Below are positions 13,194-38,605 of a DNA stretch of 44,089 nt, in pieces. The DNA is from Candidatus Nitrosopumilus sp. GTDB taxonomy: Archaea > Thermoproteota > Nitrososphaeria > Nitrososphaerales > Nitrosopumilaceae. The stretch's first letter is position 1, and every line of letters begins with the position of its first letter. The translations under genes and the position numbers were made by a program. A model generated the notes under the pieces. The model ran no database searches and was not told the origin of the DNA. It saw only the letters and a list, made by a program, of their open reading frames with translations. The stretch lies in the NCBI GenBank assembly GCA_029864335.1, contig JAOTTS010000018.1:1-44089 (forward strand), written 5' to 3'.

Positions 13194-14596
13194 CTAAACA
13201 TAGGATAACAATTCCTCTTCATCACTTGCGATTTTGCTTTCATATTCTATGATTGGTTTTATCTCGGTATCTGCTCTGTTTTTTCTTATTATGTTATGAA
13301 TTGTAGTCTTGATGGCATCAATCTCATTGTCAGTTGATGTCTTTGAAATAACATTTGTATTTTTGACTATTCTTTGCTTTTCTATCTTGATTTTCATCGG
13401 ATCAATCCCATAGAGTTTTGCCTGCTCTCTCCACGTCTCCAGGAATAGTTCTTTTTTGTCCTTCTCGTTTGCTGTTTCATTGTTCTCTTCAAATGGAATA
13501 AGAAAAGACTGACTTCTCTCATATGCCTCTTTCATGTCTGCAATCAGGTGTTCTGGAAGTCTGTGCTTGTTTGTGGTATATTTTGCCTGTGTTCCCCTTG
13601 TGGCCCATGAAAAACTGCCTGTATGCGTGTGTTATCTTGCCCTTGGATTCGGCCAAAAGTAGCTGCGTATCAAAGTATGCTCTGAGGACATAGGGCCGCT
13701 CTTTTATGATTATTCCAAATGCTGTACGTATGTTGTTGGAGACTGTTTGTTGCCAAAAAGAACGCTCTTCGCTGTTGTGTGCCCCTTTTTACTCGCTCTA
13801 TTTTATATCCTTTCAGGATAGTTATGACCGGAGAGTCTGCGTTGATTCTTTCACCATTGGATATTCTCTCTCTGAGATATCCTTGCAAGAACCTGCATCC
13901 AATCTCTGGAAGATATGTAAAGTATTGATTGCCTGTCTTGCTTAGATTTGGCCTTACCATTATCCTTGCAGGAATATCAGCAAAGACAATGTCTGCACCA
14001 TCAGGTTTTATCTCCAAACCCTTGATGTCTGATAGTTTCAATCCGTCACTGGAATCATATTTTCCAAGAACTTGAGGGTGAAGCCCTGCAAATGCAATAA
14101 ATGATATCATTACTCTTTGTCTGGCCGATGCAGAATCCAGCACATCTCTTAGCTTTGACTTTGTTGGAATTTCCTCATTTTCCAAAGTTATCGGAATGTC
14201 TGCATTTTTTATTTTTATTTTTCGCATTAGCCTGACGTAGTTAAATGAAAGCCACGAACGTAGTGCCTTGAGAATGTCTTCAATATATGATGGTGCATAT
14301 CCTGATTTCTCCAAAAAGAAAACATAATACAGTAGAGCATCCTCTACATTTTTGACGCTATCAATCCCTATCTGTGCAAGTTCCTTGGGAGTCGTTTTTG
14401 TCCTCTCACAATAAACACTGAGTCTCCGCAGTCTGACGTCAGCTGTCATGGTACTTCCTCTTGCAATGTTTTGGTACCATCTCTTGACATCAGGATCAGC
14501 AAGCAATTCCTTGTGTCTGCTTTTGGTTGGCTTTTCATGTGTTTGATTTACTATGTACATTTTATCATTCTCCTGTAAAATAATGACGATTTGCAT
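13194..14596 (-). pseudogene. Thaumarchaeal-type tyrosine recombinase with two frameshifts
   Basis: The start is ATG 14594-14596, or more likely 14561-14563 (MYIVNQ). The frame carries the SAM-like N-terminal domain (LADPDVKRWYQNIARGST; LRRLSVYCERTKTTPKELAQ) and enters the catalytic domain. The first frameshift is near 13745-13755, where ATNSLQQH replaces a frame reading VSNNIRTAFGIIIKERPYVL. The second is near 13595-13605, after FFMGHKGNTG, where the frame should continue AKYTTNKHRLPEHLIADMKE; it contains the likely nucleophilic Tyr. The last 113 codons (13194-13535) continue in that frame. The box I position reads AFAGLHPQVLG where active relatives have GLRP, so the catalytic Arg is also lost. 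It is inactive on three counts and abuts tRNA-Val. Confidence 0.8.
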
Positions 14597-31515: not shown

Positions 31516-31617
31516 ATGAAGAAAAAAGTAGATGAAGACGATGATAATTTGGATAAAAGAAATGAAGATTGGTGGAGATTAGAAAAGTTTGAGATAGGAC
31601 GGAGGAGATTTTGTTAA
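31516..31617 (+). CDS. Charged miniprotein (33 aa), leader of a zinc-protein operon
   Basis: MKKKVDEDDDNLDKRNEDWW followed by RLEKFEIGRRRFC. It is highly charged with a single terminal Cys. It lies at the standard distance behind the palindrome and TATA and ends 2 bases before the ATG of the zinc-ribbon gene, so the two form an operon. Function unknown. Confidence 0.45.
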   Translation: MKKKVDEDDDNLDKRNEDWWRLEKFEIGRRRFC

Positions 31618-31619
31618 AT

Positions 31620-31811
31620 ATGACCTTTTGTTGTAAGGGAATATGCGATGACTTGGAGATAACCACAGTTTCAAATTCTCTACGTTATCAAGTAGGACAG
31701 AAAAGATGTACAATGTGTTCGATTTTTGTTGAAACAGAAAATCTAAAATGTCCTTGCTGTGGTGTACGTCTTAGAACTAAATCAAGAAATAGAAAACATG
31801 CAGTGAAATGA
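31620..31811 (+). CDS. Zinc-ribbon protein (63 aa)
   Basis: MTFCCKGICDDLEITTVSNS, then YQVGQKRCTMCSIFVETENL and KCPCCGVRLRTKSRNRK. It has CCxxxC near the start, then CxxC and CxCC pairs, making at least one zinc site, and ends in a basic tail. This type of small protein recurs in ammonia-oxidising archaea. ATG 31620 is preferred over the TTG at 31611. Probable nucleic-acid-binding or transcription-associated protein. Confidence 0.75.
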   Translation: MTFCCKGICDDLEITTVSNSLRYQVGQKRCTMCSIFVETENLKCPCCGVRLRTKSRNRKHAVK

Positions 31812-34025: not shown

Positions 34026-34934
34026 CTAGTCTCTCTTGTTTGTTGCAATTAGATCATACGATTCTAAATCATAAGTCATTTTGTATACTTCCTGAAAACC
34101 TCCAGAAGAGTATCCTCCAACATAGATTATTTTGTTGGAGTGATCAAGAGCAAAGCTTGTGACTGTCAAATCTATATCTGGAATATTTTCCCACGATCCT
34201 CCAATGTCATCTGACTTGACCAGTCCGAATGTGTCAACAGAACCAAACAGTGTTCCTTGTTCGTCAAAAGACAGAGCAAATACGTTCAATCCCTTGTATG
34301 AAACATGACTCCAAGTTTTTCCTCCATCATTTGTTTTGTAGATTCCATTTGCAGTCCCCGCAAAAATAATGCTAGAATCATGAGGTGAAATTGCCAAGGC
34401 AGAAATGTATTCAGGATAGTCTATCGTAATCCACGTTTTTCCAGCATCAGTTGTTTTGAATAATCCTCTGTTTCCACTATCAAATCCCATGATCAAATTT
34501 GGATCAATTTTACCAACTGCCATGGCATGAAAATCTACGGGCGGTTCCAACACTGTTGCGACTTGCTGCCAAGTAATTCCGCCATCCGAACTTTTTATCA
34601 GGCCTGTGTTGCCTCCAGTTGAAGGATGTCCACTTGCATACAATGGAGCATCTTTATCATATGGAGCACTAAATGCCATGTAATCTGCCCTTATCTTGTC
34701 AACTTTAACAGGTGGACTGCCATTTCTGCTGTGATAAAAGTCTCCATGTGTTGCTATGAATAGAAGATTCGAGTCATTTGGATCTAACCCTAAACCGTGG
34801 ATGTGTCTCCACTCCATCACTCTTGGATTTGGGACATCTTGCTCTTGATCTGTTCCTGAAGATAATGCAAAAACAACCATTATCCCTGTTAAGACCACAA
34901 TCGGTATTGTAAATTTTTTCTTGAATTTTACCAT
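34026..34934 (-). CDS. Exported beta-propeller protein (BNR/sortilin-like, F510_1955-type)
   Basis: 302 residues with a signal or anchor helix (FTIPIVVLTGIMVVFALSSG) and a beta-propeller marked by Asp-box repeats S-x-D-x-G-x-x-W: KSSDGGITW, KTTDAGKTW, KTNDGGKTW, KSDDIGGSW. The N-terminal HIHGLGLDPNDSNLLFIATH is typical of the 'F510_1955 family glycosylhydrolase' group, despite which no catalytic acids are evident. It is extracellular, perhaps binding glycan or protein. It is divergent from the multicopper oxidase gene (118 bases between starts), so they may share control. Confidence 0.8.
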   Translation of the reverse strand: MVKFKKKFTIPIVVLTGIMVVFALSSGTDQEQDVPNPRVMEWRHIHGLGLDPNDSNLLFIATHGDFYHSRNGSPPVKVDKIRADYMAFSAPYDKDAPLYASGHPSTGGNTGLIKSSDGGITWQQVATVLEPPVDFHAMAVGKIDPNLIMGFDSGNRGLFKTTDAGKTWITIDYPEYISALAISPHDSSIIFAGTANGIYKTNDGGKTWSHVSYKGLNVFALSFDEQGTLFGSVDTFGLVKSDDIGGSWENIPDIDLTVTSFALDHSNKIIYVGGYSSGGFQEVYKMTYDLESYDLIATNKRD

Positions 34935-35052: not shown

Positions 35053-36708
35053 ATGAAAATTCAAATTTCTTTGATTTTGTTTGCCTTGTTTTCAATCATG
35101 CTATTTGCTGGCAATATTGATTATGCTGATGCACTAAAAGCGCAAGGTTCATGGTTATCTCCAAAGAGTTTTGGCAAAGCAACATCAGATGTTGTTTGTG
35201 GTGATAAATTGTGCTCTGAAATACCCTCACAAGATATAGAAAAAATATCCAAAAATAACTATCCCAAGTTAATATCTAAAACTTCCGTTGAGACGCTTTC
35301 CAATAATGATACGTTTGTACTGTCAGCAGATTTCATTACAAAAACAATCGATGGAAAAAACCTAGAGATGTATGGGTATAATGGTCAAACCCCTGGACCG
35401 TTAATCAAAGTAAAACAAGATGACACAGTTACAGTACAATTTACAAACAATATTGATTTTCCTACAACGGTTCATTGGCATGGATTAAGACTGGATTATA
35501 CAAGTGATGGCGTACCAGGAATTACACAAGATCCGATTCAGCCCGGGGACACGTTTGAGTATAATCTCAAATTTCCAGACGAGGGCATTTTTTTGTATCA
35601 TCCTCATGTGAGAACAGAGATGCAGATGGAAAAGGGATTTTATGGTAATATCTTGGTTGAATCAGACAAATCTCCTCAAGTGGATTATGAGATACCTTTG
35701 ATTTTGGATGATGTTTCAATAATTGATGGCAGTCTTGAGAAATTCGAGCCAAGTAAAGTCACCAAAACGCTCATGGGGAGATTTGGAAATACCATGCTGA
35801 TAAACGGAAAATCTGATTACTCCTTGGAGGTAAAACAAGGAGATATTTCCAGATTTTATCTTACCAATACTGCAAACACTCGAACATTTGAATTTGGAAT
35901 TGAACAGCACAAGATGAAACTCGTTGGAGATGATGTAAGTCATTATGAAAAAGAAACGTTTTCAGATTCTGTAATTATCGCATCATCTGAAAGAAGAACT
36001 GTGGATGTTCTGTTTGACAATGCAGGAGAATTCAACATAATTCACAATACACCTGAAAAAACATACTTCCTTGGCAGAGTCATTGTTTCTCCTTCCGTAA
36101 TAGAAGAAAATAACTCTGATTTTTACAAAACTGTAAAGAATCTGGCAATAATACAAGAGATAGATCCATTTAGAAAGTTCTTTTCTGAAGATCCTGACTT
36201 GGAACTTGAATTTGATTTGAAGACAACTACCACTGCCATGCAAAGTAACCATCCAGAAATGTCTGATAATGATGCCATGGCAATGGACAAACATGAACCA
36301 CGATTTGAGCCAATAGAGTGGGAGGATGAGATGCCAGAAATGAATGCGATGTCTGATGATGAGAATACACGTTGGATACTCCGTGACGTTAAATCTGGAA
36401 AGGGGGGTTTTGATATTGATTACCATGCAAATGTTGGAGACGTAAAAAAAATCCGACTCGTAAACAGTCCTGATTCTGCTCACCCTATGCAGCACCCAAT
36501 ACATCTGCATGGCCAGAGGTTCTTAATTCTAAATGAGAATGGAATTCCAAATGAAAACTTGGCCTGGAAGGATTCGGTACTTGTACCTACTGGAGGCACA
36601 GTGGATATTTTGGTAGAGTTTTCAAATCCTGGCCAGTGGACCATGCATTGCCACATTCTAGAGCATGCAGAAGCTGGAATGATTACTGAAATTATCGTAA
36701 ATCCATAA
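35053..36708 (+). CDS. Extracellular multicopper oxidase with a Met/His-rich insert
   Basis: 551 residues with a signal peptide (MKIQISLILFALFSIMLFAG). All four copper motifs are present: HWHG (141-144), HPH (183-185), HPMQHPIHLHG (477-487) and HCHILEHAEAGM (532-543), the last giving the type 1 site with axial Met. Between domains 2 and 3 (about 395-440) lies a Met/His/Asp-rich stretch (NHPEMSDNDAMAMDKHEP; EDEMPEMNAMSDDE) resembling the Met-rich insert of the cuprous oxidase CueO. It would couple Cu(I) (or organic substrate) oxidation to O2 reduction outside the cell. A nitrite reductase role is less likely, as NirK enzymes are shorter two-domain proteins. A TATA-like TTTTTTATAC lies about 35 bases upstream. 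The genes for DUF302 and the Met-rich protein follow, on the other strand. Confidence 0.9.
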   Translation: MKIQISLILFALFSIMLFAGNIDYADALKAQGSWLSPKSFGKATSDVVCGDKLCSEIPSQDIEKISKNNYPKLISKTSVETLSNNDTFVLSADFITKTIDGKNLEMYGYNGQTPGPLIKVKQDDTVTVQFTNNIDFPTTVHWHGLRLDYTSDGVPGITQDPIQPGDTFEYNLKFPDEGIFLYHPHVRTEMQMEKGFYGNILVESDKSPQVDYEIPLILDDVSIIDGSLEKFEPSKVTKTLMGRFGNTMLINGKSDYSLEVKQGDISRFYLTNTANTRTFEFGIEQHKMKLVGDDVSHYEKETFSDSVIIASSERRTVDVLFDNAGEFNIIHNTPEKTYFLGRVIVSPSVIEENNSDFYKTVKNLAIIQEIDPFRKFFSEDPDLELEFDLKTTTTAMQSNHPEMSDNDAMAMDKHEPRFEPIEWEDEMPEMNAMSDDENTRWILRDVKSGKGGFDIDYHANVGDVKKIRLVNSPDSAHPMQHPIHLHGQRFLILNENGIPNENLAWKDSVLVPTGGTVDILVEFSNPGQWTMHCHILEHAEAGMITEIIVNP

Positions 36709-36931
36709 CCTGAATCAAAAAACAAGTAATGCATCACCAAGGGGTAAATTACAAAAATGAATTTGAAAAAATCACATCGCCAAATTATTTGTCCAAACTG
36801 ATCTAAAACAAACCATCCAAACCAGCAAAACCATCATTATCAAAATAAGACATAGTTTCTTACAATCTTGTTGGTAACAATAGATACAACTTTTTGAACA
36901 TCCAAAATATGGATTTATTTCATATCGTGAA

Positions 36932-37318
36932 TCACTTTGAATTCTTAATTACTTCGATTAGCTTTTCTTCAATCTCTTTTCCCATAGATTCCAACTCTGT
37001 ATTTGATGCAACTGCAAGTAGTACTGTAGGCTTTGCCAAGCTGATGTAATGTTCTCCTTCTTTCTCATAAACTGCTATAGTACATGGGAGCAATAATCCA
37101 ATATTGGGATCTGAATCAAGTGCTTGTTTTGCAGCTATAGGATTACAAACCTCTAATAGTTTGTATTGATTGGGGTATTCAATTCCTTTCTTTGCAAAGA
37201 TTTCCTTAAAGTCTAAGATCCCAAGAACACCAAATTGTATTTCAGAAAGTTTTGATGTAATATCTTGAATTATTTCATCTATACTTTTTTGTGTTTTTAC
37301 CGTATAGTTAAAACTCAT
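36932..37318 (-). CDS. DUF302 protein (128 aa)
   Basis: A single DUF302 domain: MSFNYTVKTQKSIDEIIQDI, then FGVLGILDFKEIFAKKGIEY, YKLLEVCNPIAAKQALDSDP and IGLLLPCTIAVYEKEGEHYI. The conserved CNP and the LPC cysteine are both present, which fits a metal- or redox-linked role. DUF302 proteins often sit near copper, sulfur or respiratory genes; their activity is unknown. It has no signal peptide. It starts 6 bases after the stop of the Met-rich gene, so the two are an operon. Confidence 0.88.
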   Translation of the reverse strand: MSFNYTVKTQKSIDEIIQDITSKLSEIQFGVLGILDFKEIFAKKGIEYPNQYKLLEVCNPIAAKQALDSDPNIGLLLPCTIAVYEKEGEHYISLAKPTVLLAVASNTELESMGKEIEEKLIEVIKNSK

Positions 37319-37324
37319 TTTATC

Positions 37325-38605
37325 TTATTGATTTAACTGCTGCATAAAGTCTTGGTTTTGCATAATGTTACTCATGAATTGTTGATTAGTTATCATTGTA
37401 TCCATCATATGTTGTCGTAGTTCTGAATCATTCATAATTGAACTCATCATTGGTCCCTGCATATTATTCATCATGCCCTTCATATTCCAAGGGTTATTCA
37501 ACATCATTTCATTCATCTGTGCCATTAGTTCCGGATTATCTCTAATCTGACTCATCACATCTTGCATCATCTGAGGATTGTTTACCTTCCAATTATTATT
37601 GACTCCTGATTTCATCATTCCCATCTTGCTCATCATCTGTTTGTTTTTCATCATATCTTGCATCATCTGAGGATTATCCATCATTGTTTTCATCATATCT
37701 TGTCTTACCTGAGGATCATTCATTATGGTACCAATGTTAGCATTAGTCATGGTTGCCATCTTTCCTTGACTTGAATCCATCATGGAATTATCTCTCATTC
37801 CTTGTCCCATCATCCCCTGATTCATTCCAGTCATGTTTCCAGATTTCATCATACCTCCTTGCATCATCTTTCCTTGACCCATGGAATCCATCATTACTTT
37901 TCCTTTCATCTTGCTCATCATCTGTTTGTTTTTCATCATATCGTGCATCATCTGAGGATTATCCATCATTTTATCCATCATTTGCTGTCGTGAATTAGGA
38001 TCACTCATCATGCTATTGATTCCTTGACTTGAATCCATCATGGAATTATCTTTCATCATACTCATTATCTGGTTATTGTCTCTCATGCTTTGCATCATCT
38101 GAGAGTTTTTCATCATGCTATCCACCATCTTTTGTCTCAAGTCAGGATCATTCATCATAAAGTTCATCATCGGGTTCATCTTTTGTGGGTTTTGTCTCAT
38201 TGAAGATGTCATCTGATCAACTACACTTTGTGTGGTATTGGGATTATCTGAAATATCATACCAAAGCTTACTTGTATTTGGATTTTTCATCATGCTATTG
38301 GTTATACCTTGTAATTGTGATGGGTTGTTATTCATCATCATATTCATGTCAAAGATTCCCCATCCTCTATCTGCTAATCGCAAGGAAGTATCTGGATTGA
38401 TACAAACTAGTGAACCAGTAGTACCTCGCATCATCATGACAAAATCGTCCCTACATTGAATTTGATTAGGATCATTTAGCATAGACATTTGTTGCCTTGG
38501 AGACATTGACATATTGCTTTGTGCAAGGACTTGTTCAGAAAGTAATGATAATGAAATAGTTGTAATGGCAAAAACTAGAATTCCGGTTAACAAGTAATTT
38601 TTCAC
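37325..38605 (-). CDS. Exported methionine-rich repeat protein, probable copper binder
   Basis: 426 residues with a clear signal peptide (MKNYLLTGILVFAITTISLS, ending LSEQVLAQ). By hand count about 95 Met (roughly 22%), nearly all as MM or MxxM pairs in degenerate units such as NPQMMQDMMKNKQMMSKM, DNSMMDSSQG and NDPxxRQxMMDxMM. A short N-terminal domain has two cysteines (QIQCRDDFVMMM; SLVCINPDTS). Thioether clusters of this density bind Cu(I) in CopA/PcoC-type proteins and in Met-rich CTR domains. So this is likely an extracellular copper sponge or donor. It is the first gene of an operon with DUF302, downstream of and convergent with the multicopper oxidase. Its TATA-like ACTTAAATTT lies about 25 bases before the ATG. 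Confidence 0.82.
   Translation of the reverse strand: MKNYLLTGILVFAITTISLSLLSEQVLAQSNMSMSPRQQMSMLNDPNQIQCRDDFVMMMRGTTGSLVCINPDTSLRLADRGWGIFDMNMMMNNNPSQLQGITNSMMKNPNTSKLWYDISDNPNTTQSVVDQMTSSMRQNPQKMNPMMNFMMNDPDLRQKMVDSMMKNSQMMQSMRDNNQIMSMMKDNSMMDSSQGINSMMSDPNSRQQMMDKMMDNPQMMHDMMKNKQMMSKMKGKVMMDSMGQGKMMQGGMMKSGNMTGMNQGMMGQGMRDNSMMDSSQGKMATMTNANIGTIMNDPQVRQDMMKTMMDNPQMMQDMMKNKQMMSKMGMMKSGVNNNWKVNNPQMMQDVMSQIRDNPELMAQMNEMMLNNPWNMKGMMNNMQGPMMSSIMNDSELRQHMMDTMITNQQFMSNIMQNQDFMQQLNQ

Follow-up and report, generated by a model that had tools for sequence, protein, structure and literature searches.

Genes at the locus

A multicopper oxidase (MCO), a DUF302 protein, and a very Met-rich exported protein are encoded side by side in contig JAOTTS010000018.1 of Candidatus Nitrosopumilus sp. 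(this contig, 44,089 bp long and one of the 58 contigs of a 1.95-Mb genome, is called the window here). The gene order between positions 34026 and 38605 is an F510_1955-family secreted beta-propeller protein with BNR repeats (34026..34934, - strand; NF045728, 175.5 bits against a cut-off of 175), the three-domain MCO of 551 residues (35053..36708, + strand), the 128-residue DUF302 protein (36932..37318, - strand), and the 426-residue Met-rich protein (37325..38605, - strand), whose open reading frame (ORF) starts with GTG. As the initial annotation of this DNA had noted, the Met-rich gene is paired with DUF302, which follows 6 bp downstream on the same strand, and the two genes are probably expressed as one transcript; the MCO gene is convergent to them. 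Comparison with relatives points to a role for the Met-rich protein outside the cytoplasm, in the handling of copper or similar soft metals.

The Met-rich exported protein

Met accounts for 95 of the 426 residues (22.3%, or 23.6% in the mature part), and the N-terminus as read from the sequence (residues 1-28, 38522..38605, - strand) resembles a signal peptide ending in ...LLSEQVLAQ, so that the description of an exported protein with about 22% Met has been borne out. Such a composition is not due to chance, because the other window ORFs of at least 100 residues reach at most 5.4% Met, and 691 ORFs have a median of 2.2%. The hydrophobic start and the AQ site are conserved in an alignment of full-length orthologues from relatives. 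They are followed by a WING-49 domain (residues 36-83, 38357..38500, - strand; NF058652, E=1.3e-14, above cut-off), whose two cysteines, C51 and C68, are invariant in that alignment. The Met-rich segment proper (residues 95-426, 37328..38323, - strand) would consist, on lag statistics, of short helix-like units around DP or NP with MM pairs at helical spacing. Repeated xDPxxRQQMM units are seen in the alignment, and the central part is made of low-complexity MMGNN expansions whose length varies among orthologues. The window protein holds 2 His and 2 Cys.

The arrangement of the Met residues is itself distinctive. Against composition-matched shuffles, MM pairs are enriched (33 vs. 21.9 expected, z 3.0), MxxxM is slightly enriched (29 vs. 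21.8), MxxM lies at the composition level (20 vs. 21.8), and MxM falls far below expectation (7 vs. 21.9, z -4.1). The MM/MxxM repeats described at first thus stand for MM and not for MxxM. In the orthologues the lag pattern is alike, with lag 10 also in excess. This pattern appears to be that of side chains spaced on one face of short helices, unlike the MxM-type copper motif.

Membership of the STI1 domain was considered and rejected, since the match to STI1/HOP-DP (PF17830; E 0.003) scores 17.8 bits against a gathering cut-off of 29.1; a match to the SGT2 C-terminal region has an E-value of 0.006. A Met-rich WING-49 paralogue of about 300 residues, with 15-17% Met and more His, is found inside a housekeeping block (L046:818-1714, L047:6947-7831, L103:9986-10912); the window genome has two copies, and most Nitrosopumilus genomes have matches of like size. 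A heat-shock or chaperone link drawn from such paralogues near an HSP20 gene was dropped, as they belong to the housekeeping block and other genes intervene before HSP20.

The multicopper oxidase

The MCO has a signal-peptide-like start and matches Cu-oxidase_3 (1.5e-33), Cu-oxidase_2 (5.2e-32), and Cu-oxidase (9.3e-14). Alignment with CueO and nine orthologues confirms that its copper ligands are complete, as had been claimed: it has equivalents of all CueO type 1 (T1) and type 2/type 3 (T2/T3) ligands (H141, H143, H183, H185, H481, H484, H486, H532, C533, H534, H538, and M543), and all are conserved in the nine relatives. Two ligand-bearing segments are MQHPIHLH (M479-H486; 36487..36510, + strand), with T1 His481 and T2/T3 His484 and His486, and HCHILEHAEAGM (H532-M543; 36646..36681, + strand), with T1 Cys533, His538, and Met543 and T3 His532 and His534.

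In contrast, the CueO-like Met/His-rich insert between domains 2 and 3 that the initial annotation described is weak. The linker preceding domain 3 (36229..36312, + strand) has a modest Met/His content, below the CueO level, and the 60 residues before domain 3 contain 4 Met and 2 His, vs. 14 Met and 7 His in CueO. (One MCO relative, in locus L094, carries a long Met/His stretch at this place.) At the positions of the CueO substrate-copper residues, which we take to be Met355, Asp360, Asp439, and Met441, the last is kept as M479, Met355 and Asp360 are each replaced by Glu, and Asp439 corresponds to Asp463 across an alignment gap. The enzyme resembles CueO and PcoA/CopA in its three cupredoxin domains, full T1 and T2/T3 ligands, predicted export, and copper-gene surroundings; it differs from CueO in these two Glu positions, in the weak insert, in an identity of 26% to the E. 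coli protein, and in its score with the NCBIfam CueO model (E=5.9e-48), whose 164 bits are far below the equivalog cut-off of 525. By score and insert, the MCO is a general three-domain laccase/CueO-like enzyme and not CueO.

The DUF302 partner

The DUF302 protein matches PF03625 (1.2e-17; 64 bits vs. a gathering cut-off of 23) and a relative of solved structure, 1q9u (E=9e-18). Its CNP and LPC cysteine motifs are kept in all 11 of the close relatives compared, and no signal peptide was seen in its sequence. Among about 35 sampled DUF302 loci, five (the window included) have a Met-rich gene directly upstream, which is far above chance because Met-rich genes number a few per genome. The other four are membrane-anchored Met-rich genes placed 3-31 bp away in genomes G105, G166, G044, and G128, of which G166 and G044 represent one common arrangement; so three genera or more show the pairing with a kind of Met-rich protein unlike that of the window. 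One Met-rich/DUF302 locus is also adjoined by an AsnC-TRASH regulator and a YHS-domain P-type ATPase.

Conservation and recurrent settings in relatives

All comparative counts refer to one sample of 200 Nitrosopumilaceae genomes, in which genes beyond the window were called with a simple longest-ORF caller. Full-length orthologues of the Met-rich protein occur in about ten genomes and MCO orthologues in eleven; five genomes, the window's among them, have both. Co-occurrence of the two (4/9, against 10/199 for the others) gives a hypergeometric value of 4e-4, and about 0.01 within the roughly 60 genomes of the closest genera, neither value being corrected for phylogeny. Three of the sharing genomes have the two genes on one contig, at distances of 15, 15, and 24 kb, and the MCO adjoins this type of Met-rich orthologue only in the window. 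Close DUF302 orthologues (77-81% identical) occur in genomes other than those with the Met-rich orthologue, among which DUF302 adjacency is again confined to the window. Conservation of the three-gene neighborhood across the family had been named as a check; because of the 15-24 kb distances and the occurrence of the DUF302 orthologues in other genomes, the block is a local arrangement, not a conserved unit. (A scan of the genome contigs with the Met-rich alignment retrieved five loci; a scan with MCO patterns, which were probably poor, matched no relatives.)

The conserved partner is a different gene. In most relatives, a CDF cation transporter of 206 residues, which has the transmembrane (TM) part only and lacks the usual C-terminal domain, immediately precedes the Met-rich orthologue or is divergently oriented to it. 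This CDF subfamily is present at 13 loci in 11 genomes, and at 12 of the 13 a Met-rich gene is beside it (11 immediately, one with only an ArsR gene between). The adjoining Met-rich protein is of the secreted WING-49 type in some genomes and of a membrane-anchored type in others (L194-L199), a pattern that would not arise if one gene pair had simply been inherited. The initial annotation could not see this partner because the window genome has no intact copy. On another contig of that genome, a 59-residue ORF contains a 29-residue, 66% identical match to the CDF N-terminus (L169, G000:C50:23797-23883), which may be what is left of a CDF partner that was lost, or else a chance match.

Two further families recur in these settings. 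Several loci have, next to the CDF or Met-rich gene, an ArsR/SmtB regulator with a CxxxC motif; the C-x3-C motif and a C-terminal Cys are present in 7/7 distinct copies, and both copies scanned match NF033788 above cut-off, with a CmtR match below its own cut-off. An F510_1955 gene is directly downstream of the Met-rich genes in L037, L039, and L172 and close by in L038, in L099, and in the window, where it is 2.4 kb from the Met-rich gene. (L099, contig JAJDED010000042.1, is filed under a Planctomycetota metagenome-assembled genome; it carries genes 40-88% identical to those of Nitrosopumilaceae copper regions, and it is probably a mis-binned archaeal contig.)

Members of the membrane-anchored Met-rich family also accompany the MCO. 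Directly upstream of its orthologues in G092 (38 bp) and G041 (9 bp) is a gene for a protein of 200-235 residues with 27-30% Met, and in G046 and G059 a Met-rich protein gene is about 3 kb away. In relatives, the region around the MCO and the Met-rich gene also encodes plastocyanins, proteins resembling DsbA and DsbD, an AsnC-TRASH regulator, and, adjacent to a ZIP gene, a two-domain MCO. Regions of 25-45 kb in G046 (about 1.030-1.057 Mb), G059 (about 0.312-0.347 Mb), and G092 (about 0.160-0.205 Mb; loci L034, L037, L040, L085-L088) are rich in DsbA-like, plastocyanin, DsbD, HtrA, AsnC-TRASH, DtxR, two-domain MCO, and ZIP genes, and together look like a copper gene island common to several genomes of the genus. 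The membrane-anchored Met-rich family is present in 67/120 good Nitrosopumilaceae genomes. Across these arrangements, what recurs in the family is an interchangeable Met-rich exported protein, placed beside the CDF, upstream of DUF302, or upstream of the MCO.

In many relatives, small zinc-ribbon-like proteins are also repeatedly encoded close to Met-rich, CDF, DUF302, and MCO genes; one is encoded in the window at 31611-31811 (+ strand; CKGIC...GQKRC). Elsewhere in the window, an ORF at 13670-14596 (- strand) resembles, by eye, a tyrosine recombinase/integrase.

Fusions to copper domains

By a simple motif, 14 of the 74 distinct Met-rich ORFs have a C-terminal cupredoxin after the Met-rich segment. 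Hidden Markov models place plastocyanin/amicyanin-type domains on the Met-rich proteins of L042, L080, and L188, and NosZ/CoxB-type (CuA-like) domains on those of L166, L175, and L043 (with which L044 is listed). These fusions are the strongest single link of Met-rich segments to copper. Other anchored Met-rich proteins, including those of L172 (2149-2964), L178 (2128-2958), and L185 (2056-2970), end in a helical domain of about 100 residues (...AYLENYEYVEGAIA...LMEKIEL...) that has no useful match in Pfam, NCBIfam, or the PDB; we presume some resemblance to the extracytoplasmic part of FTR1-type permeases. Two proteins of about 560 residues (L043:8261-9943 and L044:10531-12204) join a WING-49/Met-His-Cys segment to the CuA-like domain and to a third domain, which is similar to the heme-b subunit of the type II DMSO reductase family (L043 was scanned). 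This suggests an unusual electron-transfer architecture.

Proposed function and alternatives

The Met-rich protein is probably an extracytoplasmic thioether buffer for Cu(I) or similar soft metals, with the MCO as a likely cuprous oxidase. It would cross the membrane through Sec and stay in the pseudo-periplasm, where many thioether sites on short helical units would bind soft metal in the monovalent state, Cu(I) most probably, and Ag(I) if present. Binding would be weak at each site and high in capacity, so that the ions are held at the outer membrane face. The MCO would most likely convert Cu(I) into Cu(II), which is less toxic, or keep the buffered pool as Cu(II) for uptake and for the loading of many cupredoxins. 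The DUF302 protein, placed inside the cell because no export signal was seen, would act there in the same stress or supply response. The Met-rich protein of relatives would have as partners the F510_1955 propeller protein and a CDF exporter controlled by an ArsR/SmtB sensor of the thiol type; this partnership suggests a general scheme of soft-metal export or capture at the outer membrane face. We infer, from genes and sequences, each of the functional elements in this proposal: metal binding, the identity of the metal, detoxification rather than storage, cuprous oxidase activity, and co-regulation in this strain.

Comparative evidence makes an extracytoplasmic soft-metal or copper role much more likely than composition alone would, because of the cupredoxin fusions, the exporter and metalloregulator neighbors, and the Met-rich gene upstream of the MCO in two relatives. 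The copper connection first proposed for the window is partly supported; the three-gene unit in which it was framed is not. Whether such a system would serve supply or detoxification can be argued either way. In Nitrososphaera viennensis, clusters that contain genes for MCO4, DsbD, ArsR, plastocyanin, and a member of the sialidase family are induced when Cu is limiting (PMC7785015), which favors supply; the CDF and CmtR-like partners favor export.

Several observations weigh against the proposal. No intact CDF was found in the window genome, and the CDF has Phe at the position of the usual TM5 His, so that its substrate cannot be named. The CDF and the CmtR-like ArsR would fit divalent metals (Cd, Pb, Zn) as well as Cu. 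In the MCO, the CueO cuprous-oxidase site seems only partly kept. For the Cu-limitation motif of N. viennensis, the window shows no enrichment (3 matches vs. 2.1 expected). Structure prediction, suggested as a way to see the geometry of the repeats, did yield an AlphaFold model from six sequences, but with low confidence (a predicted local distance difference test score, pLDDT, of 43); a Foldseek search of the PDB with this model gave no match at E <= 0.001 and was not used as evidence.

Given that CDF exporters usually move divalent ions and that the ArsR partner resembles CmtR (Cd/Pb), the Met-rich protein might instead capture exported soft divalent metals (Cd, Pb, Zn, Hg), the adjacent MCO being a coincidence of the window, the only place where it adjoins this Met-rich gene. 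Thioethers, by general coordination chemistry, prefer Cu(I) and Ag(I) over Cd and Zn; moreover, Met-rich segments are fused repeatedly to copper domains, and the MCO orthologues of four relatives have a Met-rich neighbor of their own. A divalent-metal function is thus unlikely. The Met-rich protein might also be a sacrificial antioxidant whose surface Met residues take up oxidants and are then recycled, a role reportedly played by MrpX of Azospira alongside a periplasmic MsrPQ system. Very high Met content and export would suit such an antioxidant, as would the ferric-reductase-like membrane protein (PF01794, the MsrQ fold type) near the MCO in several relatives and the abundance of thioredoxin-/DsbA-like genes there. 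However, no methionine sulfoxide reductase was found among the scanned neighbor families (some neighbors lay outside the scan), and the fusions and neighbors are cupredoxins, MCOs, a metal exporter, and a metalloregulator, which leaves a sacrificial role quite unlikely.

The weak STI1/HOP-DP and SGT2 similarities, together with the repeated xDPxxRQQMM units, could also bring to mind an extracytoplasmic chaperone, in which hydrophobic stretches of membrane proteins or exported proteins would be bound by a helical, Met-rich domain of the STI1/Sgt2 type. Yet the similarity falls on repetitive Met-rich sequence and under curated cut-offs, the central MMGNN expansions vary in length, and the gene partners are related to metals rather than to protein export; this function is very unlikely. 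A broader form of the soft-metal buffer proposal, which can be offered only tentatively, is that Nitrosopumilaceae buffer Cu(I) mainly with an exchangeable Met-rich module outside the cytoplasm, which would stand in for the classical Cop/Cus/Csp systems. Its anchors would be a secreted WING-49 domain or the membrane, its heads none, plastocyanin, a CuA-type domain, or the helical domain, and its partners CDF/ArsR/F510, DUF302, or the MCO.

Relation to known systems and significance

The systems nearest in working principle are SilE/PcoE and CinA, and the Met-rich protein would be of the same general kind. Like SilE/PcoE, the periplasmic Ag(I)/Cu(I) sponge of the sil/pco operons (PMC5008109), it is exported, Met-rich, and likely disordered or helical, with high-capacity binding of soft metals proposed. 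SilE differs in being smaller and in having Met/His motifs, whereas the window protein has MM pairs, DP turns, and its 2 His; the archaeal partners are CDF/ArsR/F510 or DUF302/MCO rather than an RND pump. No SilE/PcoE family was among the Pfam/NCBIfam matches, and no direct comparison with a SilE/PcoE sequence was made. CinA, reportedly described by Quaranta in 2007, is said to be a Met-rich azurin-like protein from the copper-inducible cin operon of Pseudomonas putida. Likened by description only, it joins a Met-rich segment to a cupredoxin, as do the proteins of L080, L042, and L166; the window protein itself has no cupredoxin, and the archaeal architectures vary in anchor and head domain.

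Csp copper storage proteins, of which N. viennensis upregulates one when Cu is limiting (PMC7785015), share the proposed bulk storage of Cu(I) by sulfur ligands on helices, but they are Cys-rich four-helix bundles, and the window protein, with its 2 Cys, would use Met. CopM of Synechocystis (PMC4335983), compared by description and not by sequence, is likewise an extracytoplasmic copper-binding protein that acts in copper resistance; its operon has a two-component system, not an ArsR regulator.

Among the papers searched, none was found that reports a methionine-rich copper protein in ammonia-oxidizing archaea, nor did any mention the N. maritimus locus tags tried for the region. These organisms depend on copper; according to a comparison of marine ammonia-oxidizing archaea and bacteria, the archaeal genomes encode no Cu efflux proteins (PMC9723733). 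With the recurrent set of Met-rich protein, CDF, ArsR, F510, DUF302, and MCO, the proposal can be tested directly in Nitrosopumilus strains that grow in culture; the pairings point to a way of keeping copper and other soft metals outside the cell that has received little study. If true, the repeated swapping of the Met-rich segment from one protein to another would be uncommon, in that composition, not fold, is the conserved functional part.

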